Source of the DNA: Priapulus caudatus
Lineage: Eukaryota; Priapulida; Priapulimorpha; Priapulimorphida; Priapulidae
Assembly (NCBI RefSeq): GCF_000485595.1
Contig: NW_014577161.1
Coordinates: 437,182 to 463,655 of the forward strand
Direction of reading: 5' to 3'
DNA length: 26,474 bases
Shown here: one piece after another, positions 3,248-23,567 of the stretch
Layout of the letters: each line of letters opens with the position of its first letter
Numbering within the stretch: the stretch's first letter is position 1
Position numbers and translations under genes: made by a program
The notes under the pieces: model-generated
What the model saw: the letters and a program-made list of their open reading frames with translations, nothing else
Database searches by the model: none
Told to the model about the DNA's origin: nothing

Positions 3248-3260
3248 TTCTTTCTCTCTG
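3156..3260. repeat. (CT)n microsatellite in CAP intron
   Basis: An almost pure CT dinucleotide tract to about 3243, then CTTT-rich sequence. On the CAP sense strand it is a long (GA)n run that begins some 30 nt after the donor at 3290. The long Ser- or Arg/Glu-rich frames across it are microsatellite artefacts. Confidence 0.97.
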
Positions 3261-3290
3261 ACGAACAACCATCTTCTGCGCAAACCTCAC

Positions 3291-4488: not shown

Positions 4489-4538
4489 TATTATCAAGAG
4501 CGTATAAAGAAGTCCTTCTTTATACGCTCTTGATATTA
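4489..4538. mobile_element. TCARGAG mini-hairpin copy 1, with TSD
   Basis: The element is 4494-4533 (40 bp). The left arm TCAAGAGCGTATAAAGAAG is followed by a 2-nt loop (TC) and the exact reverse complement. It is flanked on both sides by TATTA (4489-4493 and 4534-4538), a perfect 5-bp duplication. See the finding on the five related copies. Confidence 0.75.
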
Positions 4539-4737
4539 TAGTTATACCATACCACTGAATAGGTAAGACTACGGACACTAGACGGATAGCATGATAAATC
4601 ACTTAGACCGTATCTAAACCTTGACAATTCACGTAAACGACGCGTGTGCGGGGATAATAAATAACGACATGTGATCGTGTGATCGTGAATGAAATGCACC
4701 AAGTACCACGTACACACTAATGGTCCTAATTGCACCT

Positions 4738-4870
4738 CTCTCCCTGTCACAGTTTGTCTCTGTCTCCTATCTTATCTCTGTCTCTGTCTCTGGTTCTGTT
4801 TCTGACTCTTGTCTCCCTCGCTCTCTGGGTCTGACTCTGTCTCTCTCCCTCTCTGTGTCTGTCTGTCTCT

Positions 4871-4916
<46 letters not shown>
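4738..4916. repeat. TCTG/CT-rich microsatellite
   Basis: Imperfect TCTCTG hexanucleotide-like sequence passes into a C9 run near 4871-4880 and then a pure (CT)n tract to about 4913. Frames across it are low complexity. Confidence 0.92.
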
Positions 4917-4917
<1 letters not shown>

Positions 4918-5860
4918 ACACACTCCGGCTTTCACGGCAGGCACAGCGAAGAATGAGTAATAACTTCCTTCCATCCATCCATGCCCTCACACATCCTGCT
5001 GCTGCTGCTAGCTCGATGACTCAGCGCGAATAAATTCGACTAGGATAATCCGTATACGTGATGATCACGTTTCGCCTGCCGCTACACCTGCGTCCGTCAT
5101 TCAAACACACGCGCGCGCGGGGGCGCACGCGCACGAAACGACAGCTCAGGTGACAGGTTATTTACGGAAGGTCTGACAGATGACAGGTTTATTGCAGAAT
5201 TCAAACCGGGGGTGGGGACGACAGGACGAGTAAGTCCTAAGAGCATGCGCATTCACGTGCATGTGCTTTTTGGATAATGAACACCAATCTGATGGCTATG
5301 TGCTACGCTCGTCTGCTTATTCACACTAGAATAGCAGGCGTTCCAGCAGATCCAGGGTGACGCATCAGGGACCATGTGCCCACCCTCAAAGAATCAACAC
5401 CAGAAAACGAGGGAGAAAACGTTAAGTAGGAAATTTATAAGCCCTTCAAAACTTTCAATATACATACCGCTTCCCAAATTCAGTGCCCACCAGAGGCCAG
5501 AAATTGCCGATTTGAAGCAATACAGTGCGTGGCTGGACCCCACTGGGGGGAGGTAAAATCGCTCCTCATATATCACCCCCACCCCCTCCCACTTACCCCA
5601 CTGTTAGCTTAACTTTAGATACAGCAATGTTTATTCCCGCACAAAGTTATGACTGAGAGCCGACAAAACCGACCGAGCTTTGAAAAAAAGATGGGAACCT
5701 ATGACCGCGACGACAATGTAAAGGAACGCAATCGTCCTCTCCCTAATGAATGATCGAAGATTTTACTTCGACGAAATCCCCACCTACGAAATCCTTCACA
5801 TATTCTCATGAATACGCAATGCAGTGTTTACGCTAGACACCCCTAGGCCTACATCAGCGT
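4917..5860. other. Intron sequence, no gene recognised
   Basis: Holds short simple tracts only: CCATx3 near 4972-4982, GCTx4 near 4998-5009, a CG-alternating run at 5104-5120 and C/G-rich stretches near 5540-5590. No exon or RNA gene could be supported. Confidence 0.5.
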
Positions 5861-5880
5861 GCGTGCGTGCGTGTGAGTCA

Positions 5881-5916
<36 letters not shown>

Positions 5917-5925
5917 TGTGAGTCA
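5861..5925. repeat. (TGCG)n microsatellite with an internal duplication
   Basis: GTGCGTGCG repeats are broken once by the block GTGAGTCATGCG, which recurs at the end of the tract. The array therefore grew by duplication of a larger segment as well as by unit slippage. Confidence 0.9.
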
Positions 5926-6160
5926 TGCGGTTCGTAAACCAAACCGACAAGCTAAAAGTAGCTAACCGAGCTACAGTCAGTATTTACATCATTGCCGCGT
6001 CACACCCAGCAGAGACGGAGCAGACGCCGAACGTCCATACGCTCAGACGCTACTGCTGCTGTGCGCGCGCGCGGGCAGGTGGGCCTCGTCGCAAATACAA
6101 ATCCACGAAAACCTGTTTGATGTATACCGCGTTCGTTCATAAACGAGCCACGCTTGTGCA

Positions 6161-6215
6161 TGTACATCAAGAGTACATAATAGAGAATCTCTCGAATATG
6201 TACTCTTGATGTACA
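6161..6215. mobile_element. TCARGAG mini-hairpin copy 2, with 6-bp flanking duplication
   Basis: The element is 6167-6209 (43 bp). The outer arm TCAAGAGTACATA has an exact inverted match, and an inner AGAGA/TCTCT stem closes the loop. It is flanked by TGTACA on both sides (6161-6166 and 6210-6215). Because the flank is itself palindromic, the total stem extends to 21 bp (6159-6179 with 6197-6217). Confidence 0.68.
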
Positions 6216-6416
6216 TGAACGTGTATAATGCTGCATAACTCTCTAACTGCAGGCAGCCTCTTTACGCTGCGTGTCCGGTTGAGTGTACGTTCATACTGCG
6301 TAATACCTCGCGCGCGCCCTAACTACAGCTAGCGCTCACGCACATAACGGACCACACTGTGGCTGCTGACCCACTGTCGGCGATGTAGACAGGCAAGCTT
6401 TCGCTAGTCAATTTAC

Positions 6417-7143
6417 CTGCGGTCTGGTTTCTCTCGGCCGCACGGCCGCCTGCAGCTGAGGCAGTGGCGGCTGGTGGAGGAGGAGGAGCGGAGGCGGCGG
6501 CATGCGCCAGCTGCACCTCGCGATATGCTGCCATCCACCCATCCCGCACAGCTGCCACGCTGCGCTCATCGTCGCCCTGCTCCTCAGCGGATGCTGGCTG
6601 CGAAGCCGACTTGTCTGGTTCCGAGCTCGATATGCGAGCATCTTCCGCAGCATCCCTATTGGAAATGCGAGCATGTTCCGAAGCCTCTGTACTGGACGCC
6701 CGAACATCCTCAGCAGCTTCCCTACTGCAAACTCGACCACCTTCCGCAGTTACAGAACTACCGGAAACGCGGGCATCTTCCATAGCTTCCGTACCGGAAA
6801 CGCGGGCATCTTCCACAGCCTCCGCACCGGAAACGCAGGCATCTTCCTCAGCCTCCGTACCAGAAATGCGGGCATCTTCCGCAGCCTCCGTACTGGAAAC
6901 GTGAGCATCTTCCGCAGCCTCCGTACCGGAAACGCGGGCATCTTCCAAAACCTCCGTTACAGAAACACGGGCATCTTCCAAAACCTCCGTTACGGAAACA
7001 CGGGCATCTTCCGCAGCCTCCGTACCACCGGTCGCCACGACGCTGTTCTGCGGAGTCAGCGGCGGACGCTTCTTCGATTTGTCGCGCTTGCCTCGCTTTT
7101 TGTCGTATCCACTCACGTCGTGCTTGCCCTGTTTACCGCCCAT
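6417..7143 (-). CDS. First coding exon of a putative N-myristoylated protein with 11-residue repeats, possibly an alternative 5' exon of CAP
   Basis: ATG at 7143-7141 lies in a strong Kozak context (ACGATGG). The protein opens MGGKQGK, so Gly2 is a candidate N-myristoylation site, followed by a polybasic stretch KKRGKRDKSKKR (about residues 14-25). Residues 41-173 are eleven 11-residue repeats (consensus TEAAEDARVSG) and one 12-residue repeat, acidic and probably helical. A Pro/Ala-rich tail follows, with PPPPPAATAS. The frame would run on to 6319, but a strong donor, ACCGCAG|GTAAAT, ends the exon at 6417 in phase 1. The next exon on this strand, the CAP exon beginning at 3509 or 3494, accepts exactly this phase and is open throughout. 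A CAP with a membrane-targeting extension is therefore possible; an independent gene is the alternative. The start at ATG was chosen because further upstream only GTG is in frame. Confidence 0.62.
6625..7023 (-). repeat. Coding 33-bp minisatellite (12 units)
   Basis: Units of 33 nt encode TEAAEDARVSG-like 11-mers. Eleven units are in perfect register and one (SSVTAEGGRVCS) is 12 codons long. Frame is kept in all of them, and changes are mostly conservative (VSG/ISG/VSS, AA/VL/EE/AV/AM), which suggests selection on the protein. Confidence 0.9.
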
Positions 7144-7460
7144 CGTAGGGGTAAGGCGTACACGCCGTTCGACGACAACGCTTAACAATCCCGTCACACT
7201 ATATAATAGACGTTCTGCTCGCGGTCCACCAGGCTAGGCTGGCAGGCAGCCGAGCCGACGACAGCCGGGCGCGATCAACAAATATCCTACTACGTAGATA
7301 TACACACGCTAGCGCGCACGCGACAAATGCGCCGATTCCACTGACGTCGTTCGCATTGATGTGAATTGCGATGGCTCCGCGTGCACCTATGCTGCACACA
7401 GCGGTGACTGCAGGCCTACGCGCGCAGCACACCTGACTGCAGTGGCTGGCCACCTCCACC
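7144..7460 (-). promoter_or_regulatory. CpG-rich upstream region, likely promoter of the 7143-6417 exon
   Basis: GC- and CpG-rich sequence lies immediately upstream of the strong ATG. A TATA-like ATTATATAG on the minus strand (7207-7199) lies 56 nt before the ATG, which would leave a very short 5' UTR. No transcription start can be fixed from sequence alone. Confidence 0.35.
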
Positions 7461-8110
7461 CAACCAAGAAATCAAATTCCATGCAGCGAGTAGACTGTCC
7501 CATCACATTACCGATCAACGTTCGACTTCATTATGCCCATGCATGAGAACTTAACACACTAGCGCAACCCATCTACGAGCACCTCTGTATATTTATACGC
7601 ACAGCTATTTGTCAATTGTCGGCAGTGCGTGTAAAGCGAAACGGTACTACACCTGCTAGATTTTAGACGATGTTATCAATTTACATCCCCTCTGATACAC
7701 TGAACCTTTCGAAGGAAAGAAACGCAACTTGATGATTAAACGAATACTAACCTGGCAATACGGGTTATTCACTAAGCAGTTCGCCTTTCTTTACCCAAAG
7801 ATTATTGTGGGTGCGTGGGTACACTTACGATGCTGTTTACTTTATAGCAACATGTACATTTGAGTAGGTAATCATAAGGTATGAACAAGGCAATATTTCA
7901 TGTTATAAAACAATGATTATTTTTTTCCGTTTGCTAGTTCAGTTTGCAATGCTTTGCCACTTAAGAAATGAATGAGTGCTGGCTGTACTACCAATCACCC
8001 TCGCTACAGAAACCAAATATACTATCCACAGCACGATAAGGAACTATGACATTGACACCTTTATTTAAACAGCAACTGATTACGACGCAAATAAACTATC
8101 TTCATTTATA
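7461..8110. other. Intergenic, nothing recognised
   Basis: AT-rich, no exon-like frame, repeat or RNA gene seen. Confidence 0.5.
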
Positions 8111-8575
8111 CAGAGAAGAGAGGGGGAGAGAATAATAAAGCGACGTGAGAGAGGAGGCGAGAGAGAGGTAAATGAGAGTCTGTGCCTAGAAAGAATCACT
8201 GTCTAGTCACCGTCGAGAGAGAGAGGAGAGTCACTACCTAGAGTCAATCCCCACAGAAAGAGTCGCTGCCCGCAGTCATTGTCTAAAGAACGACCCACTG
8301 CCTAGAAAGTCACTACTTGAAGAGAGTGACTACTTAGAGAAAAAGTAGCTGTCTACAGTCACTGCCTTAGAGTCACTGCCTGGCGAGTCACCGCCTAGAG
8401 AATGACTGCCTAGAGATTCACAGCCTAAAGAAAGTGACTTCGTAAAGAAAGAGACATTGCCTATAGAGTCACTGCCTAAATAGTAAATGCCTAGATTATC
8501 ACTGGCCTAAAGTCAGTGCCTAGAGCGAGTCACTGCCTCAAGAGAACAGCTGGCTCACTAGAAAGAGTCGCTGCT

Positions 8576-8577
<2 letters not shown>
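8111..8577. repeat. Degenerate minisatellite, GCCTAGAG...AGTCACT
   Basis: About twenty loosely spaced copies of GCCTAGAG and AGTCACTG words alternate with GAGAGA spacers; the nominal unit is about 16-20 bp. It grades rightwards into the pure (GA)n tract. Unit spacing is irregular, so this is an old or fast-decaying array. Confidence 0.8.
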
Positions 8578-8627
<50 letters not shown>

Positions 8628-8720
8628 AAGAGAATGAGAGAGAGAGGGGGAGGGAGGGAGGGGGGAGGCAGGGAGGGAGCGAGAGAGAGAGGGGGATATA
8701 GAGATAGAGAGAGCATCGCT
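8578..8720. repeat. (GA)n and GGGA-rich microsatellite
   Basis: A pure GA run to about 8640 is followed by GGGAGG-rich purine sequence and GATA/GAGA to about 8712. The plus strand is almost entirely purine for 140 bp. Confidence 0.95.
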
Positions 8721-8852
8721 TCCTACATAACATTGCTACATACAATAACTCTTCGTAGGAAGCCAACGAAGCGTGATCCCACGTGTGAAGCTCAGCCTCG
8801 TCGCAGCTCTCGCACGAGGAAGCGTGGAGATTTCCCGTCACAGATTCCGAAT

Positions 8853-9113
8853 CTAATCTAGCACGTTGCACACACAGACGTGTCTAGCCGCCGACTCAGT
8901 GCCATCGTCACCTACATTCAGATCGAACCCAATGCAGACAGGCAACGCCGACGACCGAGATTCGATCCAATTACTGCCAACTGCGAAATCTCGAAGCACC
9001 CGCGAACCGAAATTTTCGACCTCCTCGAGAGTCGACCACGCCACACGTAAATGTTTGATGACGAGCAGTGCTGATGATTGCTGGCTTCTACGTTGTCGCG
9101 TGGCAGCCGCCAT
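8853..9113 (-). CDS. Unassigned open frame in a CpG-rich patch
   Basis: An 86-codon frame opens at an ATG with good context (GGAATGGCGG) and reads MAAATRQRRSQQSSALLV onward. The surrounding 8.75-9.2 kb is CpG-rich, unlike its AT-rich neighbours, and the opposite strand is also open, so composition alone could explain the frame. A possible donor, AAT|GTAGGT, lies near its 3' end. It could be a first exon of the same minus-strand transcript as the CAP exons, a non-coding promoter-associated transcript, or chance. I do not recognise the protein. Confidence 0.2.
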   Translation of the reverse strand: MAAATRQRRSQQSSALLVIKHLRVAWSTLEEVENFGSRVLRDFAVGSNWIESRSSALPVCIGFDLNVGDDGTESAARHVCVCNVLD

Positions 9114-9372
9114 TCCCCTACCCCTGACGTACCTGCACGTTGTACGGCACCCTCACACGTGGCCGCTAAACACGGTGCGTTAGCGATCGAACATTCGCTA
9201 AAACTCCAATCGCAAACGTATACATGCGAAGCGTGTCAGAGCGTGCATGCGAAACACGACAGTGGTGATATTGATCATAAATAGGGGGTTAACAGCTGTT
9301 GTTACATTGACAAAGAAGAAGAGCCGGTGCGTGTGCTGACTTATGCACCACCAATAGGTACATAAATGAAGC

Positions 9373-10156
9373 ATAATAATTAGTGGTGTTCCGATTAATT
9401 GAGTTTGTCGATTATTACTCGTTTGGGCTGCCGAGTTGATTAATCGAGTAGAAAATCGGACGACCGAGTACAACTCAAACTTTTTATATATTTTTTAATA
9501 TTTTTTTTATATTTCCAGATTTGACACAAGTACATACATTTACACATATATACTAGTAAACACGGTGCGGTGTAAATTTTCAAGGAACTAAACGACTTTG
9601 TTTCCTGAAAATCAAGCCTAATCCTAAATTTTCCTACATCTTTTCAACTTATTTCCTAAATTAAAGCATTTAAAAAAAATTCCAGGGACAATTTTTTTGT
9701 TCATATTATGAACAACTTATATGGTTAAAAGCTTAGGTCCCAACTCTGCTGTTTCTGAGAAATAACAAAAAACTAATTTTTGTATAAATTCACAATTTTT
9801 GCCGTCACTTAATTAGCGATGAAATAAAAAAATTTCATCGATAGCATAGAGAGGCATCTCTCTTATGTAATTAATATATGAGTTTGATTGAATTTGATGA
9901 GCAGTTATGTTGCAATGCCCTTTAGAGTCTTACCCGTCTGTAACCCTAACAGTATCCTTAATTACCATTAAATACTAGCTACATATACAATAATGTCAAT
10001 ATTCCTTCGCAATACACCGGTTGTGTCGACGATGACGCGGCGTCACTGCGTCGTCGCTGCAATCTAAAATGATCGATGATTAATCGATCATCGGTCGTTT
10101 TGTAAAACTGATGATCGATCATGAAATTTGGACCGATCTCCAACACTAATAATAAT
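9373..10156. mobile_element. 768-bp non-autonomous hAT-type element with 8-bp TSD
   Basis: The element is 9381-10148. It starts TAGTGGTGTTCCGAT and its other end read inward is TAGTGTTGGAGATCGG, fitting the hAT terminal pattern YARNG. It is flanked by exact ATAATAAT on both sides (9373-9380 and 10149-10156), the 8-bp duplication expected for hAT. Subterminal regions are rich in GATTAATCGA and ATCGATCAT words on both sides, like the subterminal transposase-binding repeats of hAT elements. The interior is AT-rich with no transposase frame. Confidence 0.85.
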
Positions 10157-10957
10157 GTATCATAAACAAGATTGGTTAGCAGGTACGCAGTATGTGTTTG
10201 CGGCCTGGCTACTAGTGACATATAGTTTCAGATTGCATTTTCAGTGTTCCACATTTTCCAGCATATGTGGTAACTAACTCTACTTGCTAACAAGTATCAT
10301 AACAAACACACAATAGACAGCAGTAAATTATAGTCCAACGTTAGTGAAACGTTGATCCTCTGTTGGCAAGGCTTTTTATTCCTTCAGCACAATACCGTTG
10401 CCACACAAGCTACCACTTAACAGTTATATGATAATGTTCAGGAAAAGGAAACGGATAGGAAAATTGCATCTGTAAAACCTCTTCTAAAATTCACCCAGTC
10501 AGTATAATGCACACACTAGCGATTAGACTAGGCAAGTTGCATACGCCGACTTTAAAAAAAAAACCATTCCCTGAACTACTGCATCGTAAATCACTCAAAG
10601 CAAATATGGAAATTGAGCCAGCAATTTGAACTGTCATTGGAAATTCATAATTCATTTGAACCTGCATCAAGGCACTCATTCAGAACCATTACTCGTTCAC
10701 ATTCACTAATTATTCGTAATCACTAATTTTAAGTCATTGCCAATTAATAGGTACTTTTTGCAATATTATTGACTCTTACTGCTTTAGCTTTCAGAAATAC
10801 AAATTAATATTGAAAGAATAAATGGCAGATATTTGTGCACAGGCTGCAACCTTCAATTCATACACTCACTGCTACAAACTCTACATGTTCCAATGTTTTA
10901 AAAGGATATAAGGCCTTCATAGAAACGTGTGCATGTGAACATGTATAGATGTCTCAA
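10157..10957. other. Intergenic, nothing recognised
   Basis: AT-rich sequence without an exon-like frame, repeat or RNA gene that I can support. Confidence 0.5.
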
Positions 10958-10959
10958 TA

Positions 10960-11296
10960 TTTATAAAGTGTTTCCCCTGGCCAAAAAGGTCTGTCAGATG
11001 GTTTTGTTTTTTTGGGGGAGTTGCCCAGTTCCAAGGTCCAACAAAACCAACAACGCAAGGGCCCCCCCAACCAAAGGCATCCAGGGGCATGCCCCCCCAA
11101 ATTTTTTTGAAAAAATTGTCCAATTTGGTGCATTCTAAATCTAAGCGTCTTTGGTGAAGTATAAGCACTGTTCTATGGAAGAACATTGATTTTCGTCAGC
11201 GAGGCGGTGTTTTGGAAAAATTTCTGTGTGGCGGCTGAGAATTAGAGCGAGGCGGCCCGCCTCGCTTGTGTCTATGCAGGGGAAACACTGTTTATA
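10960..11296. mobile_element. hAT-like non-autonomous element (about 325 bp)
   Basis: The right end read inward is CAGTGTTTCCCCTGCATAG and the left end is AAGTGTTTCCCCTGG, a typical hAT-style CAGTGTTTCCCC terminus with one change. The body is 10966-11290. The same 6 bp, TTTATA, lies on each side (10960-10965 and 11291-11296); hAT usually makes 8 bp, so two flanking bases may have mutated or the boundary is off. Inside are GGGGCATGCCCC (11084-11095) and a palindrome AGCGAGGCGG/CCGCCTCGCT with a 1-nt centre near 11246-11266. No coding frame. Confidence 0.7.
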
Positions 11297-12634: not shown

Positions 12635-12637
12635 CCA

Positions 12638-13222
12638 GTGAAAACTCTAAATTTCTTCACTGTGCTGACACTTCTATTATCCAGAGACCTAGAACTGAAC
12701 CCAGGACCCCCAGTATACCCTTGTGGGCTGTGCGAGAAAACGGTCCGATCGAACCAAAATGGTATTCAGTGTGAAAAATGTGATGCATGGTTCCACTGTC
12801 GTTGCATTGGCATGGACTTAAAACTTTACAAAAAACACCAAACAGATGAATCCCTTGAGTTATTCTGCCCGAGCTGCGCACCACCGCCGCAGATGGAAGA
12901 AGACAGTGAAAATACAAACTACCTTCAAGAACTTTCCGAACTGCGCAAGAGTAACCCGAGAAACATTATTCTAGCGCAACTCAACATAAAAAGCATGAAA
13001 ACAAAATATGTTATTTTAAATGATATGCTGTACCAAAAACTTGTAGATGTGCTAGTCATTGGTGAATCGAAAATCGATGACTCGTACACCGACGCCATGT
13101 TCAATGTAGATGGCTACTATTTGTACAGAAGAGACCGAAACTCTAGAGGTGGTATCATGGTATATGTGAGATCAGATATACCATCTCGTAGACGACCCGA
13201 ACTAAAATCTATGCAAATCTAA
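12638..13222 (+). pseudogene. LINE N-terminus: 2A-like peptide, PHD finger, start of APE endonuclease
   Basis: The frame enters without an ATG; the codon at 12638 is GTG, and the frame is open back to a stop at 12452-12454. A hydrophobic run, FFTVLTLLLSR, precedes DLELNPGP (12686-12709). This matches the 2A consensus DxExNPGP, at which ribosomes skip the Gly-Pro bond. A PHD-type zinc finger follows, with C29, C32, C45, C48, H53, C56, C77 and C80 (counting from 12638; spacing Cx2C-x12-Cx2C-x4-Hx2C-x20-Cx2C). From about residue 108 the APE endonuclease begins (LAQLNIKS with catalytic-type Asn, VIGESKIDDS with the metal-binding Glu, RRDRNSRGGIMVYVRSDIP). It stops at TAA 13220-13222. The sense continues in the same frame, so the stop is a nonsense mutation. 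Confidence 0.88.
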
Positions 13223-13903
13223 ACAATCGGCATCGAACTTCAGATTAAAGATGCGAAATGGCTGATGTTGGCAAGCTATAGACCGCTATAATTGTCACCA
13301 AAAACCTTCACGGAGGACACGATGAAAACTCTGAATGTTATATTCTCAAAATACGAGAATGTAATTCTCCTCGGTGATTTAAATTTCGATATGCTCTGTA
13401 AAGAGAAATGTGCTCCCCTTACCAACCTATGCGATATTTTCGATCTAGTAAACCTCGTTCGTGAACCAACATGTTTCACAAAAAACAGCGACCCCTCGTT
13501 AAATGATCTCACGCTGACAAACAAACCAAAAAGTTTCCACCGATCACTCGTCACTGACACAGGCCTTAGTGATGTGCACCAACTTGTTGCCCGTGTGATG
13601 AAATCGAATCTTCAGACTCAGCAACGTGGAAAGCTACAATATCGTTGCTTCAAAAATCTCGACGAGACTAAACTAAAACATGATGTTGCATCCATACCGA
13701 TTCATGTAGCGGACAACTTCGATAATATCGACGACGTCTGCTGGATGAAAGATAGACTACTGTCAGACATCATCGACAAACATATTCCATTTAAAGAACG
13801 TAAACCTAAGAGGGCCAAAGCCCCCTTCATGAACGGCAAACTGCGAAGAAACATCAACTACAAAAAGAAACTCCGCAGAATATTTGAAAACTGTAGAATG
13901 TAG
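13223..13903 (+). pseudogene. LINE APE endonuclease, C-terminal half
   Basis: Same reading frame as the preceding segment. It runs through a second nonsense codon (TAA just before 13292, in the context SYRPL-stop-LSPKTF) and then on to a TAG at 13901-13903. Endonuclease motifs GDLNFDML and GLSDVHQLV (the catalytic Asp/His region) are readable. A basic linker with KERKPKRAKAP and NYKKKLRRIFE follows. The frame changes by +1 around 13885-13903, where sense continues in the next segment. CR1-type endonucleases nick the target DNA to prime reverse transcription; this copy could not make the full enzyme. Confidence 0.85.
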
Positions 13904-14450
13904 AACCAAGGAAAGCTTTGACAAATTTAGGAAGCAACGAAACAAAGTGACCTCGATGAAGAGAGCATCAATACGGAACTACTTCCTTGAGAGATGTGCT
14001 GGTGGACCCACATCCAAAGACTTTTGGCCGACAATCAAACCCTTCCTCAGTAAAAACTCTTGCAGCACGCAGGATATAATCCTGCTCGAAAATGGAAATG
14101 TGATCACTGACCAGAAACAGATCTGCGATATTTTTAATGAACATTTCTCTAAGGTAGCCAATGATATTGGCCGAGATCTAGATAACGGATCATGAGGTAA
14201 ATGATCACCCTAGTGTTAATAACATTAAGAACTTTGCCCAAACATCTGAACATTTTGTTTTTAAACCGGTCTCATCAAAACAGGTTGATAAATATTTACA
14301 GTCGATTGGCAATAAGAAAGCCACGGGTTTAGATAATATTTCTGTCAAAATTTAAAAAATTATCAGACCTTCCATGTTGGAAAATCTAAAAATTGATGTA
14401 AATAGGATGTTCACCGAGAGTAAATTCCCGAGTACTATAAAGACAGCCCG
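13884..14450 (+). pseudogene. LINE linker and N-terminal RT region, broken
   Basis: The first part (to TGA 14193-14195) reads CRTKESFDKFRKQRNKVTSM and later KDFWPTIKPFLS and ICDIFNEHFSKVANDIG, the usual pre-RT region of CR1-like elements. After a frame change the sense resumes at 14200 with NDHPSVNNIKNFAQTSEHFV and GNKKATGLDNISVKI. A nonsense codon TAA is at 14353-14355. The text continues to KFPSTIK, where another shift near 14440-14450 leads into the RT core. Confidence 0.82.
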
Positions 14451-15407
14451 GCCCGGGTCACCCCAATCTTTAAAAAAGATGACCCGCTTCACAAGAAGAA
14501 CTATCGCCCCGTAAGTGTCCTATCAATTCAGTCAAAGATCTTTGAGAGAGCCATGGTGGACCAAATGAGTGGCCACTTTCAGTCCCTCTTCCATCCATTC
14601 TTGTCAGCGTACCAAAAGGGCTACAGCTGTCAGTCTGTACTTTTAACCCTGACGGAGGAATGGAGGAGGGCACTTGAGGGTGGCCATTTTGTTGGTGCCA
14701 TACCAATGGACCTTTCGAAGGCCTTCGACTGCCTCCCCCATAATTTACTGTTGCGGAAACTGCGAGCTTATAATGTATCAGAAGAAGCTGTTAACTTGTT
14801 AGACAGTTATCTTTCTGACAGAAAGCAATGCGTTAGAGTTGGAAATACCCAAAGTATGTTCCTCCCATTGACAAAAGGCGTTCCGCAGGGTTCAATTGCA
14901 GGACCCATACTTTTTAACATCTTTATCAATGATATTTTCTACTGTATCAAAAATTCTACACTTGTAAATTATGCTGATGATAACACAATCACATATGCAA
15001 ACAAAAGCTGTGATGTCATGAAACAGACTCTGGAGACTGAGGGTAGTTTTCTTGTTGACTGGTTTACAGAAAACCAAATGGAAGCAAACCCAGGGAAGTT
15101 CCAAGGTCTTGCAGTAGGCAAGAAAACCCACAGCAAGAATCCTACCTTCAGGATCCAGGGTACTGATATCAAATGCACCGATGACGTTAAATGGCTTGGT
15201 GTAACTTTTGACTTTCTACTGAGTTTTGATACTCACATTTCAAACTTATGTAAGAAAGTAGCAAGACAAATAAATGTGCTTAGACGTATAGGAAGATATA
15301 TGCCAATAAGTTGCAGAAAGGTATATACACATCCTTCATTCAATCAAATTTCAACTTCTGCCCAATCATTTGGCACTTCTGTAGTGAAGCCAACAACAAA
15401 AAGTTAG
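14451..15407 (+). pseudogene. LINE reverse transcriptase core
   Basis: The frame is open from 14451 (ARVTPIFKKDD, NYRPVSVL) through the canonical RT blocks: DLSKAFDCLPH, GVPQGSIAGPILFNIFINDI and the catalytic YADD at 14970-14981, then KWLGVTFD. The catalytic aspartates are intact. The sense leaves this frame near 15320; the last 30 codons to 15407 are out of frame. The enzyme copies the element's RNA at the nicked target. This is the best preserved part of the element. Confidence 0.92.
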
Positions 15408-15812
15408 AGAAACTAAATTATCATGCTCTACGACGTGTGTATCACGACTATGAAAGCAGCTACGAGGCACTTCTCTCCAAAGACCAGTCTGTCTCATTAA
15501 ACCTCATGAGGCAGCAACAAATTGCTGAAGTGGTCTATAAAATTTTAAATAAACTGTTTAACAAAGCCCTTCATACCCGTTTGATTTATTCTCATACAGG
15601 GAAACTGGTCACGACTTGCGTGGCAGCAGCTTAAAACTCCAGAACTGCCGCACAGTAGCATACGGAAAAAAAGTCTACGTTACCATGGTGCTAGTCTCTG
15701 GAATCAGCTTCCACTCTGTTTGAAAGATGCTACCGATTTAATTTCTTTTAACAAAATGATAAATACATGGATGGGCAAGAAATGCATGTGTGCAATGTGT
15801 AGGTTCAGGTGA
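15311..15812 (+). pseudogene. LINE C-terminal domain, three frames
   Basis: The sense reads YTSFIQSNFNFCPIIWHFCS and LEKLNYHALRRVYHDYESSY to about 15605. It then shifts to HDLRGSSLKLQNCRTVAYGK and, after a one-base loss in an A7 run at 15666-15672, to SLRYHGASLWNQLPLCLKD, ending at TGA 15810-15812. This is the conserved C-terminus of CR1/L2-type polymerases ('RSFRYxGAxLWNxLP'). Confidence 0.85.
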
Positions 15813-16015
15813 TGTGCAATTATATTCAACAGCAACATGAAATGTAATTGCAATTGCATTTTCATTGATCATATACATTGCCCACAGCCCAAACAGTAAC
15901 ATGTCCTTACTTTATATTTTATCATACCCATACCTGTATCTCAAACTTGTATATCTTTAATGAAATGATATGTTGTTATAACTGTTTTTTATACATTTGT
16001 TAGATATCGATTAAA

Positions 16016-16093
16016 GAGCTTTCCAGCTCATGTTCACTGTTTTAAATGTACCGATGAAAATAAAGATTATCTACTACATCTACATCATCTACA
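16016..16093 (+). other. LINE 3' end: hairpin, AATAAA and short-repeat tail
   Basis: GAGCT-TTCC-AGCTC (16016-16029) forms a small stem-loop of the type expected near CR1/L2 3' ends, where the reverse transcriptase recognises the RNA. AATAAA lies at 16059-16064, followed by repeats of CTACAT/CATCTACA to 16093. CR1 elements end in short direct repeats rather than poly(A). Confidence 0.65.
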
Positions 16094-16102
16094 GCCATTG
16101 GA

Positions 16103-16148
16103 CATAATCAGGAGTCTATCAATGAATATTGATAAACTCCTGACATAA
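16103..16148. mobile_element. TCARGAG mini-hairpin copy 3, with TSD
   Basis: The element is 16108-16143 (36 bp). The arm TCAGGAGTCTATCAAT has an inverted match with one mismatch and a 4-nt loop. It is flanked by exact CATAA (16103-16107 and 16144-16148). It lies 10 bp after the LINE tail. Confidence 0.72.
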
Positions 16149-18518
16149 TCACATCCCTGGTTGAAAATAACATGTGTGTGCACTCTACCATATGTCATAT
16201 TACAACAAAATTACAGGTTTCACCCGGTCACTGGTCAGTGTATACATTTCAAGATAGGTACCGGTAACAGTCTATAAATATTTGCGCCACGTAACTACGT
16301 GTGCTCGTTTTGTGGGACCGTTTGAACACTCCATTAGCACACGAATCTGAAGATGGTGGGTGCACGTTTGATGTACATCTGCTGTTTTATAGCCTATAGC
16401 AGCACAAATTTGTGGTGGTGATTGTTGTGCCGGAGTAATCAGTAAAAAGTCCACTAATACTACAGTAAATTAATAGGTGAGACCTAATTTGTCTACTAGT
16501 ACTAGTACTACACTTATGCAGTTTTCAATTTATTCGTGAGTTAGGCTGTTTAAAACAAACATGACTGAGTTAGACAGTCAAAGGCCAGTGACAATGACGG
16601 CTCAATCCTGGTTTAGCAGCCCGGATTAGCTTAGCACTTTTGCTAAAACACATTATTTTTGTGGGGTCCCAAACTAGGATCGAGCAACGTGAACGATGCC
16701 AATGGGCCGACACACTCACACATTGTCTTCTGTACTCTAGACTGTAGATGCTGAGTAAGTTTACATAGCTTGGTGAAAATGCCTCGACAAGACGGGAACC
16801 TTATTCCAGGCATTTGGGGCTGACTACATCAAAGTATTTATTTGCATATATGATTATATTCGAGTATTAATATTGCTACATATGATATATTATGAGTGAT
16901 GATGTTCAAACATGGGGGCAGCCATTTTGAATTTGGGCGAACAATTCATAACAACTTAGTAACTGCTTCTGACAGCGACATTTACGCATACTTTATACTT
17001 CTGCGGTTACTTTGAACTATTTCACTTATTGGGTTTCTGATAAGTACTACAATAAAACTAATAATAACGTATAATATATAGAAAAATGTTCGCTTACCGG
17101 TGACTTGCACTGCAGTTCCGGTGCGCAGTTTAGGGTGGGAACTACAGGAAGTTGGCCCCTATAATAGTTTCCCCTGTGGTTTCCCAGCTATATTTTACTT
17201 GCAAGATTTTCTGTTTAACACTTAAATCATATTAGAATATCAATTAAAATAATAATTTGTTTATATTGATATATTTTACCTGGCGACGCAGAACTCAATT
17301 AACTAAAATCTGGGTCTTATTGCTATCGTCAACGTCGCGAAAAAGTGTAATGGCTGTGGCTGTGTATGTGCCTTGGCTTGTCCGTAAGAAATTTTATTTA
17401 TCTAATTCAAGTAAATGGGTATGTATGTACACAAGAATCTTGATGTCACACGTATTAGAAAAAAGTAATGATTACTTCCAACGCATTTCATTAAATTTTC
17501 CAAATAGCACATGCATTTTAATTGGTTGATTTTGAACTTGAGATTTTAGGCAATGTGCAACTTTTTGCATCGTGCCAAAAATTTCAGTCGCGACTCGTGC
17601 ACTATTCCGTTGTCGGCTAATTTTAGAGCAAATTCATTTAAAAAAAGGCGTGCCTTAAGATGCTGGTGTTGTAGGTGACGGTATTGCTGACAGTATTTAC
17701 ATGTTCATGCCTAATAAGAATTTGGTTTACATGAGCCTCAGCAGTTTCAAGCTAATATATTGTGCTACAACGGAGTTGCAGATTTTCGACTTGACTGTTT
17801 CGCAACCTATAGTCGATTTTTAGTGCCAATAATCATAGGTTTGGATTTACGTCCATGAATTTTTCGCATTAGTATTCTGCCAGGCAGTTATGCAAGAATT
17901 CGAGATTTGCGTAGTGTAGGCCTAGTTGGTTTTGGTTATTGCCCGAGATCTAAATAGTAGTGTTATCAACTTATCAGCCTAAATTTGCGCCGTGCAATGA
18001 GCGATCTGGTTTGGTAGCTTGTTCATGTATAGAGTGAAAAGTAGGGGTCGATTATAGACCCGTGAGGGATTCATCTAGAAATGTTCTGAGATGAAAATAA
18101 AGTGGAGCCAAGTTTTTCTCTTGATTTTCTGTTTGTTGGCTATAGTTTGAATTCTGCATTGTGGTTTTGTCACTGAATCATATTTGAAGGGAGTTTCTGG
18201 AGTAAGAGGGTGATGGATTAAGTCAAACGCATTTGAGAGGCCACTGGCTACCACCCCGCCATTTATTTACATAGCCTCACTCAGTAAGGAACAGTCAGAC
18301 AACTGAGGAAAGATATTACCATATTAACGTGATTAAGATTTTTTTATAATCCGACTAAAGCATACGTTCATTACATTCGTGTCAATAGAAATACGAATTT
18401 CAATCAATCTATACTTTTTTATAACAGTTCGCGTCGTAGTTATATATACCTAGATATCTTTTTAGGGAGTGTGCGGTCATATGGTGTGGTCTAGCTTTTC
18501 TTACGTTGACAACTATGC
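16149..18518. other. Intergenic, no gene recognised
   Basis: AT-rich DNA. A short ACTAGT repeat is near 16494-16508. A 90-codon frame at 17257-17529 has no recognisable motif and AT-driven composition. No exon, RNA gene or transposon terminus could be supported. Confidence 0.5.
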
Positions 18519-18720
18519 AGGGGCGTAAATCCATACCGAGGAGTGGGAGGGGGGATAATCGGCGATAGCCGGGGGCGAAATTAACCTTGGCTGCCGCAGG
18601 CAGGCCCGCGTGCCGTAGGCATGCCAGTGCTAGGGGGGTCTGGGGGCATGCCCCCTCATAAAATGTTGAAATATTTAAGCCATTTTCCTGAAATCCGAGG
18701 CATACTGTGGGCCATATTCT
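18515..18720. repeat. Dispersed G-rich repeat fragment sharing GGGGCATGCCCC with the 11-kb element
   Basis: It starts with a hAT-like CAGGGGCGTAAATCC. It contains the perfect palindrome GGGGGCATGCCCCC (18642-18655), preceded by GGGGGGTCT and followed by an A-rich TTGAAA block, an order also seen near 11060-11120. No matching right terminus was found, so it is probably truncated. Confidence 0.5.
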
Positions 18721-19327
18721 CATGTCTGATGACACTATCTCAACCCTAGACTCAACCTTACAAGTTAGGATTCAAAACACTTTTCATGACTTTTCAGAGA
18801 GCGTACACAGTTAGGTTACTATAGTAATAATAAATGTATTAAAACACAAGTAAGAATTGCAATTTCTCACAATTTCCCGCGTGTTTTGGTATGTTTGCAA
18901 CCATACTTTTTGGCTATTCTTTTTTTCTTTCTTTTTGGTTTTGAATTTTAGGGGGGGGGGATATTTGTACAGGCCATACGATGAGAAGGAATACAAATGA
19001 TAGTACGAACCAATATTGAAATTTGATGTTAAGCACAAACCCTTGTGCGCGGAAGGTATGAGTGCAGTTTTCCATAGTCACCGGAACGAACTAGGTGACT
19101 TGCCATTGAGTCATGATGTCTACATTAGCAAATTTCGTTGCCAATCACGGCTCGGTAGTTGAGACTATATTCGTACATCTGACCCTGTGTTATATAATAT
19201 AACTGCGAAGCACAGTATATGGACTAATGTAACTAATCATAGCCTATCCTGCGCCTCACAACCTAGTTCTCATGCTTGACACAATATATATACTACATTT
19301 TACTATGATACAATATAGTATACAATG
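18721..19327. other. Intergenic, nothing recognised
   Basis: AT-rich sequence with a G10 run near 18951-18960. No gene seen. Confidence 0.5.
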
Positions 19328-19329
19328 AT

Positions 19330-19413
19330 ATATCAGGAGTTAATAAAGATAAATTTGTCTTTATTAACTCCTGATATTATGTATAAATAAATAAATAAAT
19401 AAATTTATTTATT
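19330..19413. mobile_element. TCARGAG mini-hairpin copy 4 and adjoining (TAAA)n palindrome
   Basis: The hairpin core is 19333-19374 (42 bp). The perfect 20-bp arms of 19330-19349 and 19358-19377 begin ATATCAGGAGTTAATAAAGA, with loop TAAATTTG. The flanking pentamers (ATATA and TATTA) do not match, so no target duplication is shown. Directly after it, 19383-19413 is (TAAA)n passing into (TTTA)n, a second AT palindrome. Confidence 0.7.
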
Positions 19414-19437
19414 TATATTCTTACAATTTTGTTGCAG

Positions 19438-20044
19438 TGTTAGATCTAGGCGGTGGTATCCGGTGAACGAGCAGTCTCCCGATAATGTACGAAGGATTAT
19501 GAAAATATCGCGTTTATCAGCGAAGGTTTAGCCATGTGAGCACGCTGAACGATCGTATATCAGGTGTATTTTATTGTTTGCTATAAAAAGCCCTTGCATC
19601 TGATATAGTGATACACATGAAGAGGACAAGCATGTAATATTTGATTGTGGGCGTATTACTTGTACACTGTGGCGTGGCCAAAACTATTAACATGAATTCT
19701 GTTTCACGCGCATCGCATGCTGAAATTAAAACGAAGCATGAAAACAACATGACTGTTTCTATTTTTCTAAGAACATTGGAAATTCACAATTATAGCGCGA
19801 CAGGCTTTGATGTAAAAATTGCAACTGGTTCACATGGATCAACAGAACATCTAAAAAAAAACGTTGGCCCGTAAGATTGTTAGCTGCTGATGGTGATGGT
19901 GCTAATTTATTTACGCTGCGATACGCGGCCTAGACTAGCCTATAAATAGGTACAGCAGATATAGCCACAGCTTCCCAGATCGACGCGTCACATAATCATT
20001 ATAACAACTCGTTATGTTACAACTCGTGGCGCCAGTGAACGGTG
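19438..20044 (+). mobile_element. Possible LTR with primer-binding-like site (weak)
   Basis: A segment from TGTTAGATC (19438) to TTACA (20021) has the TG...CA ends of an LTR. It is followed after 5 nt by TGGCGCCAGTGAACGG (20027 on); TGGCGCC is a known primer-binding-site start. TATA-like boxes TATAAAAAG (19582) and TATAAATAGG (about 19940) lie inside. No second LTR, gag or pol is in the window. A frame at 19641-19874 inside it has no recognisable motif. Confidence 0.2.
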
Positions 20045-20979
20045 CTAATGGTGATTTCCTAACCAACAAGATTAGCATCTCGGCACTACTACCATTGCCC
20101 AATTTAGATCCATTTTATTGGAGGATAATTGTTTGGCAAATATGTAGAGTGCTCGGCTGTAAAACCTCCTGTTTCCACTGAGATTCACCGCAAAGATACG
20201 CATAACCACTTTATCCGTGCATGTGGTCGGTCTAAGCACTATATTGCTTAGCGCTGTTTGCACTGTGAAAACTTAACTAAAACGATAATGTTACCGCAAT
20301 TACTTTAATAAAACGAAGTTCTATCGTCGCCGCAAAAATGAGATTATCGCTAACTATACCAGCATGTTCCTGGGTTTCTGTATGAAAATGTGTCTAAAAC
20401 GAACAGCCAAGTAATGTAGTATATATGTAATATTTATATTGTATTTCTGTGATTTCATGTAGCGTGTTAGATTTTTCCGCAACAGTTTAATTCGACCCGA
20501 TAATCAATGATAGTAGTTTATTATGTCGTTATTAATATTTGCACGTTGAACATTACTGCAATGTTGGCTTCTGCGTCCATGCGGTAAATAATGAACGCAG
20601 CCAAGATCATGTTGCTAGACGTGATTGAATTACTGGTTCGAAGCGCCCTCTAGTTCCCATAACCTGCCGTGTAGCGCATTGCTTGGTGTTACGTGGTGAG
20701 AGCTGTATTTGATGTTGCTCCACGTTGCTGCATCGCACTGCTTGTCACACTGCCACGTTGCAACCACCAGAGTACTGATTTAACGCTGTGATCGCATGAA
20801 GATGACAGTTCATATTTTCATAATTTGTAATCTAGTATTACGCTGAATAATTGCTACTCATTACTCAGATGTTGAATACAGTGTACTGTTCTTACTCGAA
20901 CTATTGGCTTAAACCAGAAAAGCGGCAGGGAAAATTATGCATCGACATTCCTTATAATTCAATATTATTGCTAACAACA
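20045..20979. other. Intergenic, nothing recognised
   Basis: No exon-like frame, repeat or RNA gene that I can support. Confidence 0.5.
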
Positions 20980-21029
20980 CACACACGCGCGCACATGAGT
21001 ACACAAACACAAACACACACACGATTGCA
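20980..21029. repeat. (CA)n/(CG)-rich microsatellite
   Basis: Interrupted CA repeats with CGCG words; the Penelope-like coding sequence begins right after it. Confidence 0.85.
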
Positions 21030-21037
21030 CGCGCACA

Positions 21038-21454
21038 GGAGCAACATACCGCCCCTACAGAAAACCAAACGACGAGCCACTCTACATCAACACGAAATCC
21101 AACCACCCACTTACCATAATTAAACAACTACCCGCATCCATCAACCGTAGGATATCAGACATCTCGTGCAGCAAGGAAGCTTTTGACAAAGCTAAGCCTC
21201 CCTACGAAAAAGCTTTAAAAACAAGCGGATTTACCGAAAACCTTACATACGCCAGCCGCAACACATCTGCAACCGCAAGAAAGAATAGGAAAAGGAACCT
21301 AATCTGGTTTAACCCTCCATACGGCCAAAACATCCAAACTAATATCGGCAAAACCTTCCTCAACCTCATCCAGAAGCATTTCCACAAGGAACATAAATTC
21401 CACTCTATCTTCAACAAGAACAACGTAAAAGTTACAGCTGCACGGAAAATATAG
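21038..21454 (+). pseudogene. Penelope-like RT C-terminal region
   Basis: The frame enters as ATYRPYRKPNDEPLYINTKS, then SINRRISDISCSKEAF and RKRNLIWFNPPYGQN, then NIGKTFLNLIQKHF and HKFHSIFNKNNVKV. I recall this order as the conserved region between RT and endonuclease in Penelope-like elements. It ends at TAG 21452-21454 because of a shift near 21434-21437; the sense continues in the frame starting at 21436. No start codon is expected, as the copy is truncated. Except for this break the copy looks recent. Confidence 0.85.
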
Positions 21455-21981
21455 CAACCATAATTAACAAGCACAACAAGAAAATAACCAGCGACAACCC
21501 CACCCCCTCCCAGAACGAATGCAACTGCCGAAAAGAAGAACAATGTCCACTCGACAGTAACTGCCTATCAACCAGCCTAGTCTACAACGCACGCGTAACT
21601 ACAGATGAAGACACCATAAGAAAGAACTACATCGGACTTTCAGAGGAAACATTTAAACAACGACACACTAAACACAAGCTATCACTTCGAAACAGAAAAT
21701 ACGATAACAGCACTAAACTCTCAAAGCACATCTGGAAACTCAAAGACGACAAAAAAAATTATACAATAAATTGGTCAATCATCACTTCAGCAAGCCCATA
21801 CAACAACATCTCCAAAAAATGCAATCTCTGTTTAGCAGAAAAACTTTACATTACTAAAGCCGACAAAACCAGGCTCCTCAACAAAAGATCTGAACTAATT
21901 TCGAAGTGCCGACACGAGAACAAATATTACTTAATGAACACGAAAAGCACAGGAGATGCTGGAAAATCCTCAGCAATTTAA
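21436..21981 (+). pseudogene. Penelope-like GIY-YIG endonuclease domain
   Basis: Open for 181 codons to TAA 21979-21981. A cysteine cluster, CNCRKEEQCPLDSNC, precedes SLVYNARV (the GIY-equivalent strand), NYIGLSEETFKQRHTKH (YIG with the catalytic-type Arg) and STKLSKHIWKLKDD. It closes with CNLCLAEKLYI and RCLL-type residues RLLNKRSELISKCRH. GIY-YIG nucleases of these elements cut the target DNA for integration. The domain appears complete and without stops, but it is separated from its RT by the shift described in the preceding entry. The frame has no initiating ATG of its own, which is why simple ORF finding misses it. Confidence 0.87.
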
Positions 21982-22055
21982 CATACGACCCACGCTACCA
22001 CAGGTGAGCCCGTCGCCTTGACCTGCGTGCACGGACACTGTGGCAAGATCCTCAG

Positions 22056-22180
22056 TCTCGACCCCAGCGAAAAACGTCACACCTGCCGCCGCCGCTGCCA
22101 CGGACAACGGCGTCGACAACGGCTTGCTCTCGCGTCTGACGATGGACGACGGCCAGATCATCACCGGACAGCGACGCACA
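22056..22180 (+). other. CpG-rich exon-like segment between acceptor and donor motifs
   Basis: Preceded by GATCCTCAG and followed by a consensus donor, ACA|GTGAGTG. The plus-strand reading contains TDNGVDNGLLSRLTMDDGQI with GC-ending codons, very different from the A-rich Penelope coding sequence beside it. It could be a host exon, a part of the element, or chance in CpG-rich DNA. I do not recognise the peptide. Confidence 0.25.
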
Positions 22181-22226
22181 GTGAGTGACGACCACCGCCG
22201 CACGTACAGCCACGACAGGAAAAGAG

Positions 22227-22281
22227 GTAACTATGGCCCGCGTACGGTTTCCGCAGGCAACCGTACGCGGGCTATAGTTAC
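22227..22281. repeat. Near-perfect 23-bp inverted repeat
   Basis: The left arm 22227-22249 and the right arm 22259-22281 match with one mismatch over 23 bp around a 9-nt loop; the arms contain CCCGCGTACGGTT. It lies between the CpG-rich block and the Penelope 3' region. Its cap sequence (GTAACTATRG) differs from that of the TCARGAG family. Confidence 0.85.
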
Positions 22282-22380
22282 TAGAGCTATAGAACTACAT
22301 AACAATAGATAACTAAAACAATAGTGCCATTCATGTTTATATAGGTTATGGAATGTATACAAGGTTTATTCTTCATTAAA

Positions 22381-22430
22381 GTTTGTCTGATGATCGCGTA
22401 AGCGTGAAACTCGGAGTAACAGCTAAACGT
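22381..22430 (+). ncRNA. Hammerhead ribozyme core (type I, minimal stem III)
   Basis: CTGATGA (22387-22393) is followed by stem-loop II: CGC (22395-22397), GNRA-type loop GTAA (22398-22401), GCG (22402-22404), with a T-T mismatch at the base. GAAA (22406-22409) comes next. Stem III is ACT-CGG-AGT (22409-22417), which places the cleavage site after A22418 in GTA. ACA (22419-22421) pairs with TGT (22384-22386) to begin stem I, which can extend after an internal loop through GTT/AAC. All conserved core positions are present. The very short stem III and open stem I are typical of hammerheads in retroelements. Self-cleavage would process the element's RNA. Not tested by a covariance model. Confidence 0.72.
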
Positions 22431-22457
22431 GATGTCTTAATTTATCTACAGACTACA

Positions 22458-22481
22458 ATTTATATATATATATATATTAAA
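22458..22481. repeat. (TA)n microsatellite
   Basis: A short TATATATA tract after the Penelope 3' region; possibly the insertion junction. Confidence 0.8.
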
Positions 22482-23510
22482 ATAGCCCGTAATAATTATT
22501 ATGTGCACAATAGGCGGCATAAATTCAAGAAAATGCAGATGCAATTCCGATGATGAAGACATCTGTTGTACCTGGTCGTATATATTATATGCATATCAGC
22601 GCGTGCCGTGGTGGGGATGTCTGACTAATTTAGTACATGTCGGAAGACAGGTGATAGAATAGCCGTAGAAATATTCGACACGCATCGCATAACTGCCGCT
22701 TTTACCTATAGTAATGATTTTTGTATAGGCTTTCGAAATTTTCGGCGAGCTTATTAATCGAACTTTTTACCTCCCGCTGCATGATATTGATTTCGCTGAC
22801 AATGTCAAATTGCGGGCTAGGTATATAAACCCACGAGTAATATAACGAATATACAGTAAACAAAGGTGGCGAGTGCAGTGACAAGCGTGTAAGTGGATGT
22901 CAGGGCAAATGCGACACATGGCTCGGATTTGGAGCGACAGGTGCAATATTGAGCTACACAATACAAACGGTAGTGAAAGCGTGTATTATAAAAGAATATC
23001 AAGTGAAGCGACGGAATCTCCCTTTTTATGACGCAGTTTGACAGTAGCTCGATATACTACCAGGCTGGCTAAGCAGGTGCTTTGCTCAAATAGTCTGTTA
23101 GTACATTGACAAATGTTCAGGTTCGCACGCACGCACACATGGGCGCGTATTTAATAATGTTTTCGGGCTGTTATTGTGGTTTGACCTGAAACTTCCTGGG
23201 AATTGAGCACATGTCTATTGTGTCTGCATTTTGCCACGGGTAATAACAAGTATAAGAAAATATACCCCTGTTGACTGTACGAGATGCAATAACACTTGGA
23301 CCGAGGCAAGACTGGTTGGCCACTAATTGTTCATAGATTGTATTTGACCTAAAACTCGGCATCATGGAAAATTGACCTTCTAATTGTTGGAAGCGTCCTG
23401 GAAAAGACTTCTAGAAATTTTTGCCTTAAATTGTCCGAAGTTAATATTTTAGGTGGAATTGAAAAGATCAGATTATGATTAGCTTGATTAATGTGATCGG
23501 CAGACTCACA
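22482..23510. other. Intergenic, nothing recognised
   Basis: No exon-like frame or repeat that I can support. Confidence 0.5.
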
Positions 23511-23567
23511 TGTGGTCAAGAGCTAATAAATACCGGGGTCTAAGGTGTTTATTAGCTCTTGATGTGG
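23511..23567. mobile_element. TCARGAG mini-hairpin copy 5, with TSD
   Basis: The element is 23516-23562 (47 bp). The arm TCAAGAGCTAATAAATAC matches its partner with one mismatch; the loop is 11 nt. It is flanked by exact TGTGG (23511-23515 and 23563-23567). Confidence 0.74.

Follow-up and report, generated by a model that had tools for sequence, protein, structure and literature searches.

When a P element is excised, a portion of each inverted repeat stays behind, flanked by the target duplications. In Drosophila, P-element cleavage has a 17-nt stagger and is associated with 8-bp duplications (PMC7776569; PMC10983969). Comparable features are described for other elements: Galileo, a fold-back member of the P superfamily in Drosophila, has a 7-bp palindromic duplication (GTAGTAC) and non-coding fold-back copies whose inverted repeats are long (PMC2775673), and the zebrafish Pdre2/THAP9 P-like element has ends that start with CA (CATACC), 13-bp terminal repeats (CATACCTGTCAAC), an 8-bp duplication and internally deleted copies, with larger flanking deletions reported on excision when the zebrafish protein acts in fly cells (PMC10983969). 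Bacterial REP palindromes, which are RAYT-linked, are short and of high copy number (PMC2817692). Here, we analyze a family of short hairpins in the priapulid Priapulus caudatus, and propose that they are very probably the excision scars of a cut-and-paste DNA transposon family that appears to be P-like.

The hairpin family shares with the Drosophila P element an apparent inset second-strand cut and 8-bp duplications, but its duplications are mostly 7-bp ATNNNAT, its ends are CARGAG, its inner box is different, its arms are 17-19 nt, its scar-like hairpins number in the thousands, and its transposase is presumed, from resemblance, to be of the P type. Galileo is similar in the length and palindromic form of its duplication and in its fold-back copies, but its target and end sequences differ, and the available part of its description (PMC2775673) makes no mention of hairpin scars. 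Pdre2 shares the terminal CA, the 8-bp duplication and the internally deleted copies, and differs in its terminal repeats and in the larger deletions noted above. REP palindromes work differently: here the host is a eukaryote, and the hairpins have target duplications and long parents. By titles and the starts of abstracts, hairpin scars left across a genome by a P-like element are described in none of the open-licence papers listed.

The window analyzed is a 26,474-nt stretch of contig NW_014577161.1 (positions 437,182 to 463,655), in which a sequence-only reading had reported five near-perfect hairpins. All five are confirmed at the reported coordinates, and most likely represent scars of departed larger P-like elements, not independently mobile ultra-short ones. 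Their parts, in window coordinates, are as follows.

4495..4532, no strand: E1, putative scar of 38 bp, an 18-nt end (CAAGAGCGTATAAAGAAG), the centre TC and the same end inverted
4488..4494, forward strand: left target duplication of E1, ATATTAT, 7 bp
4533..4539, forward strand: right target duplication of E1, ATATTAT, 7 bp
6168..6208, no strand: E2, putative scar of 41 bp, end type CAAGAGTACATA..., inner arms imperfect
6160..6167, forward strand: left target duplication of E2, ATGTACAT, 8 bp
6209..6216, forward strand: right target duplication of E2, ATGTACAT, 8 bp
16109..16142, no strand: E3, putative scar of 34 bp, end type CAGGAGTYTATCAAT
16102..16108, forward strand: left target duplication of E3, ACATAAT, 7 bp
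16143..16149, forward strand: right target duplication of E3, ACATAAT, 7 bp
19334..19373, no strand: E4, putative scar of 40 bp, end type CAGGAGTTAATAAAGAYAAA, flanks GATATAT / ATATTAT, without exact duplication
23517..23561, no strand: E5, putative scar of 45 bp, an 18-nt end (CAAGAGCTAATAAAYACC), a 9-bp centre (GGGGTCTAA) and the inverted end
23510..23516, forward strand: left target duplication of E5, ATGTGGT, 7 bp
23562..23568, forward strand: right target duplication of E5, ATGTGGT, 7 bp

The window contains 11 TCARGAGY-type sites, ten of which form the ends of these hairpins. The five score 12-21, and two further window hairpins score at least 12. In 100 dinucleotide shuffles of the window no end-pair appeared, and a hairpin of any kind scoring at least 12 arose in six, the largest at 14. 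The window has no Rfam match at gathering cut-offs and no tRNA was found; we reject both an RNA gene and a tRNA reading of the hairpins.

The hairpins had been described as flanked by 5-bp target duplications, a boundary that we reject. The outermost T and A are part of the duplicated target: the true ends lie one base further in at each side (CARGAG...CTCYTG), and direct repeats of 7 bp (ATNNNAT) or 8 bp (ATGTACAT, the target of E2, found also around L050) flank the hairpins. A fixed T...A beside an end can mask a longer target duplication in this way; where a base other than A stands beside CTCYTG, it equals its left-hand counterpart in all four cases (G at C101:370371, C at C101:430532, and T at both e414 and L079). 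Exact repeats, 19 of 7 bp and two of 8 bp, flank 21 of 26 hairpins, a count reached after a twelfth local candidate with weak arms and no duplication (C101:437973) was left out; for comparison, 512 of 279,032 random local placements give an exact 7-bp repeat. Within the window, four of the five copies are exactly duplicated (three at 7 bp, one at 8 bp), and the reported lack of a repeat around the 19.3-kb copy, E4, holds. The remaining hairpins without an exact duplication are L043, L047 and L049, the last two with a repeat off by one base, and L054, which sits within a tandem repeat and probably does not represent a scar.

Genome-wide, the pattern TCARGAGYN{20,45}RCTCYTGA occurs at 2862 places, compared with five for a reversed-pattern control, placing the window hairpins, as had been suspected, in one family, which has thousands of copies. 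A single-arm search gave 755 plus-strand and 747 minus-strand sites (control, 0 and 3). From the first 100 matches listed we hand-picked 25 facing pairs, 20 of which span 38-74 bp and five 337-2667 bp; the remaining 50 matches had no exact partner within 3 kb. Among 50 matches listed for the paired pattern, perfect arms reach at least 14 bp in 37 and are shorter in 13, and in 34 they measure 16-22 bp counted from the outer T. Centres vary from copy to copy, and arms stop at one place. The E2 end type recurs at C101:365891, that of E3 at three of the 50 matches listed, and that of E4 elsewhere in the genome.

Longer elements with the same termini exist, at 337-2667 bp and in a family of about 780 bp, and those read carry the same arms at both ends and the same 7-8-bp duplications as the hairpins. 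The latter family, comprising e477 (779 bp) and its relatives with hairpin-type ends, consists of large inverted repeats with arms of about 261 bp; 32 of 40 scored genome copies, the query included, span from position 6 or earlier to position 776 or beyond. Both flanks were read for seven long copies. An exact 7- or 8-bp repeat surrounds five, including L077, where it falls within a TA-rich run; L078 shows none, and e477 sits in a TA repeat where a duplication cannot be scored. The 18-nt end of E1 opens the left side of the 2667-bp and 337-bp elements, followed by GAGAGYGTACAACGG, and the end of E5 exists in two forms, found at the right end of the long copy C76 (L080) and at the left end of the long copy e559, which has lost its right arm; there TAGAGTGTACAACG follows. 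For E2, E3 and E4 no long parent was found. The earlier proposal that the hairpins derive from mobile DNA and are little more than terminal inverted repeats is supported.

In the long elements, a conserved inner box, GAGYGTACAACGG, begins about 2 bases past the 17-18-nt terminal arm. It was seen in the long ends read, namely 16 ends of eight copies and four further ends, with one end of the 337-bp element (L084) scrambled, and is common to two end types, CTAATAATACC and CGTATAAAGAAG. To our knowledge, it matches no known family. None of 16 scar ends (eight scars of one end type) enters the box; these ends match the parent from 9 bases short of the CC|TAGAG point to 2 bases past it. Against the scar reading, arms differ in length by class (17 in one, at least 18 in others). 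Since scar arms stop short of the inner box, each hairpin resembles the terminal 17-18 bases of the two element ends plus filler: in the scars examined, a short variable centre joins two ends. Excision scars are a better reading of the hairpins than 36-47-bp mobile elements in their own right.

We propose that a P-type transposase would make staggered cuts. One would fall at the element end, next to CARGAG, and its counterpart on the opposite strand 17-19 nt further in, adjoining the inner box, so that the donor ends would retain 17-19 nt of each terminus. The cell would then end-join the two like overhangs, through self-complementary microhomology (for example a central AATT or GGCC) or with filler, whose templating we judged by eye, to give duplication, end, centre, inverted end and duplication. 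The excised element would insert elsewhere with a new ATNNNAT duplication, and the scars themselves would be inert.

The signature, which had been matched to no named family, resembles the P superfamily in its 7-8-bp duplications around both hairpins and long copies, its termini beginning with CA, in itself a weak criterion, and an inset cut of about 17 nt suggested indirectly by scar arms of 17-18 nt ending beside the inner box. P-element transposase genes are present in the genome: the PF12017 profile has 14 matches there, the strongest at 2.3e-24, and none in 14 control genomes. One match falls in an open frame of 827 aa (C1414:71153-71401); the 2667-bp element (C5:962246-964912) is not among the 14. 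The same scars could be left by a transposase from outside the P superfamily whose second cut likewise falls deep within the element ends, given that the link between CARGAG ends and P transposase is itself drawn from likeness and that the inner box matches no family known to us, but we consider this unlikely, as duplication, terminal CA and inset cut together fit P elements and the genome contains P genes.

The two arms of a hairpin had been said to covary, one perhaps being copied from the other. Covariation is common but not strict: the two variable bases are the same in both ends of 20 of the 25 facing pairs and unlike in five. In eight long copies, arm-arm agreement is 94.6-98.8% in six and 83.3% and 84.2% in two, and between long copies it averages 89.9%, the closest arms of different copies being 99.2% alike; with different copies this similar, arm agreement decides neither for nor against arm copying. 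Covariation in scars needs no such copying, since each scar inherits both ends of one parent, and neither the long-copy agreement nor the unlike pairs support the idea that one arm is always copied from its partner. We can offer, as a rather unlikely extension, that the outermost 17-19 nt are the fast-changing part of the element, single-stranded in both cut products and outside the inner box, and that one end is rewritten from the other by fold-back copying at each transposition. The two ends of a copy would then keep matching each other even as families diversified into many end types, and the thousands of scars would be fossils of this diversification and of break repair in the germline.

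That the 34-60-bp hairpins are instead ultra-short MITEs, excised and inserted by a transposase acting in trans, is quite improbable. Exact target duplications and copies in the thousands would suit it, as would L046, a scar that sits inside the centre of another, older scar and has its own ATAATAT duplication, and all three also count for the scar reading; moreover, one 42-bp sequence is repeated exactly at four of the 50 matches listed, and the two copies with flanks read (L042, L045) have different duplications, so that it could also be a hopping micro-element. However, a MITE would be a constant, complete short sequence with all transposition signals, and the hairpins read lack the inner box of long ends; their variable centres and fixed arm stop fit joins rather than copies of a master, and one transposase complex could hardly synapse both ends of a 40-bp DNA.

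That long fold-back elements instead collapse to short arms when replication slips or the hairpin is cleaved is more improbable still. The inverted-repeat architecture of the ~780-bp parents would favor it, and breaks at such structures are discussed in the available part of PMC2775673, but slippage would give many arm lengths rather than the narrow range observed, the eight compared scars stop beside the inner box, and E1-type scars behave in the same way, with 337- and 2667-bp parents that need not be long palindromes. De novo template-switch hairpins are rejected because end types are shared and target duplications are present.

Similar end-pairs turn up in viral and prokaryote collections, which are not expected to contain this eukaryote. 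In viral contigs, two scans with gapped end-pair patterns hit 10 and 14 loci, including several mutual copies, which we take as chance (in the best, 13 of 17 half-length positions are complementary, fixed ends included). One scan of prokaryote genomes gave 16 loci with several good hairpins, including a perfect one between bacterial open frames (L027); a 6-bp repeat flanks L026, and no repeat of 3-11 bp flanks any of the remaining 15.

One practical caution is that MITE finders may take excision scars for elements. If our reading is correct, a single eukaryotic genome would hold thousands of naturally formed junctions, inherited through the germline, at which one defined type of break was repaired, with flanks, both ends and filler readable at each. 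Germline end joining, including microhomology, templated filler and end loss, could then be measured outside the usual model species, and for a P-like transposon one could compare how many copies have departed with how many survive.

The five near-perfect hairpins that a sequence-only reading placed in the window (26,474 bp, G+C 42%) are present exactly where it put them (E1 to E5, with boundaries corrected as below: 4495..4532, 6168..6208, 16109..16142, 19334..19373 and 23517..23561), and they are among the window's strongest. They score 21, 21, 20, 15 and 12 among 12 non-overlapping window hairpins scoring at least 9, and two further hairpins, outside the five, score 19 and 15. Any hairpin scoring at least 12 appeared in 6 of 100 dinucleotide shuffles of the window, and the end pair in 0 of 100. 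By our reading, with host genes read by eye, the setting is eukaryotic and animal-like. Microsatellites are numerous in the window, which contains no tRNA and has zero Rfam matches at gathering cut-offs. The other features we recognize are as follows.

Features of the window outside the five hairpins
2740-3460, minus strand: exons resembling the N-terminus of cyclase-associated protein, from our reading of the translation
6319-7197, minus strand: 292-aa frame containing about twelve repeats of 33 bp each; match to Pfam Mucin-like slightly below cut-off
12638-16090: LINE-type retroelement with PHD finger, endonuclease (below its curated cut-off) and reverse-transcriptase matches; frames broken
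21050-22000: candidate Penelope-like element, judged by eye, with a GIY-YIG-like reading
22227-22281: 55-nt hairpin of a different kind from the five; score 19; no Rfam match at gathering cut-offs

The LINE-like element has a CTACAT-type tail and stops about 15 bp upstream of E3, and the 55-nt hairpin lies directly downstream of the Penelope-like candidate.

The genome scan that had been proposed shows an excess of such hairpins: in the 385-Mb assembly, where the window occupies C101:437182-463655, TCARGAGYN{20,45}RCTCYTGA matches 2862 places, versus 5 for the backward pattern. Among the 50 places listed, end types recur (AGATAATAGGG, CTATCAAT, CGTATAAAGAAG, CTAATAATACC, TTAATAAAGAC and others) and centres are variable; perfect arms reach at least 14 bp in 37 of the 50, with a median over all 50 of 17 bp counted from the outer T. 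By arithmetic from the genome mean, about 0.2 strict copies would be expected in the window versus the 5 present, a figure that applies to a window picked for looking unusual. On a Campylobacteraceae-labelled contig (L027:6899-6932), a 34-bp hairpin whose CAAGAGCAAATAAAGA arm pairs perfectly lacks a flanking repeat and is probably chance or terminator-like.

The 5-bp target duplications of the sequence-only reading prove to be longer. Counted from TCARGAG, an exact 5-bp repeat flanks 20 of 26 hairpins, and in 20 of 20 the base preceding the left repeat equals the outermost right base; with CARGAG...CTCYTG as the element, the duplication is exactly 7 bp in 19 of the 26 and 8 bp in 2. These 26, taken out of at least 2862, comprise 15 from the genome scan and 11 local copies inside or beside the window; one more local candidate, the twelfth, has weak arms and lacks a repeat, and the count excludes it. 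Exact 7-bp repeats occur at 512 of 279,032 random local placements. Because the finding pattern fixes T and A for most copies, the unbiased boundary test lies in copies with an outer right base other than A, and all four of these match the left flank (C101:370371, G; C101:430532, C; L079, T; the long element e414, T). The 7-bp consensus is A T R W T A T, or ATNNNAT in looser form. Five hairpins have no exact duplication: E4, L043, L054 (within a tandem repeat), L047 and L049, the last two with a single mismatch each.

Longer elements with the same ends, which the earlier reading had suggested looking for, do exist: three lie in the 200 kb around the window (a joined stretch containing 67,985 N), namely e477 (C101:477739-478517, 779 bp), e414 and e559. 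The first two are of the fold-back kind, each arm measuring about 261 bp; in e559 the right arm is lost. Used as a genome-wide query, e477 gave 531 first-look candidates, and 32 of 40 scored copies, query included, span nearly its full length. Directly internal to the terminal 18-19 nt of long copies (17-18 once the boundary is corrected) lies TAGAGTGTACAACG, kept with at most one change at 16 of 16 ends in eight copies. Searching for the single arm TCARGAGYNNATAAAGA gave 755 plus-strand and 747 minus-strand sites (control, 0 and 3). From 100 places listed we chose 25 facing pairs at most 3 kb apart, of which 20 are 38-74 bp long and the other five 337, 707, 710, 853 and 2667 bp; the variable bases of the two ends are unlike in 5 of the 25, and 50 of the 100 places have no exact partner within 3 kb. 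The 337-bp and 2667-bp elements begin with the end of E1 followed by GAGAGYGTACAACGG; their right ends are variants, scrambled in the 337-bp element, and the heptamers on either side of each differ at one base in seven (ATTACAT/ATTAAAT, ATAATAT/ATATTAT). No parents of E2, E3 or E4 were seen among the long elements found.

Compared with their parent, the arms of eight CTAAT-class hairpins, read as excision scars, end where the inner box (the conserved sequence just inside the terminal arm of long elements) starts. Across these 16 ends the match stops between nine bases short of the CC|TAGAG point and two past it, and none reaches into the inner box, which is also absent, at up to 2 mismatches, from the whole window and from stretches L041-L055. 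E1 consists of two 18-nt ends plus TC; in E5, nine bases accompany a pair of 18-nt ends that belong to the C76/e559 type. Judged by eye, some scar centres resemble copied flanking bases and others joins at self-complementary tetramers. At L046:1471-1558 scars are nested, a CAGGAGTGTATCAAAA hairpin with its own duplication, ATAATAT, interrupting an older CAAGAGCTAATAATACC hairpin at its centre.

The matched arms had been taken to suggest copying of one arm from the other. Scars do not need such copying, because both arms of each derive from one parent. Within long copies, the arms agree at 98.5, 98.5, 97.7, 98.8, 94.6 and 97.8% in six copies and at 83.3 and 84.2% in e559 and the C76 copy; arms of different copies agree at 89.9% on average (closest, 99.2%). 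The simplest reading is that matched arms are inherited in young copies and drift in older ones, and active arm-to-arm copying may also occur.

P transposase is described as making an unusually long staggered cut of 17 nt and 8-bp duplications (PMC7776569; PMC10983969), and Galileo, a fold-back element of the P superfamily, as having 7-bp duplications of its own (PMC2775673). After a 17-nt staggered cut the donor DNA would keep 17 nt of each element end, and end joining would then yield the observed scar structure; which enzyme cuts, in what order the strands are cut and how the break is repaired are inferred. The genome carries P transposase genes, with PF12017 matches at 14 places; none of 14 control genomes has any. 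One match, at C1414:71153-71401, lies inside an 827-aa open frame that is a candidate coding P element.
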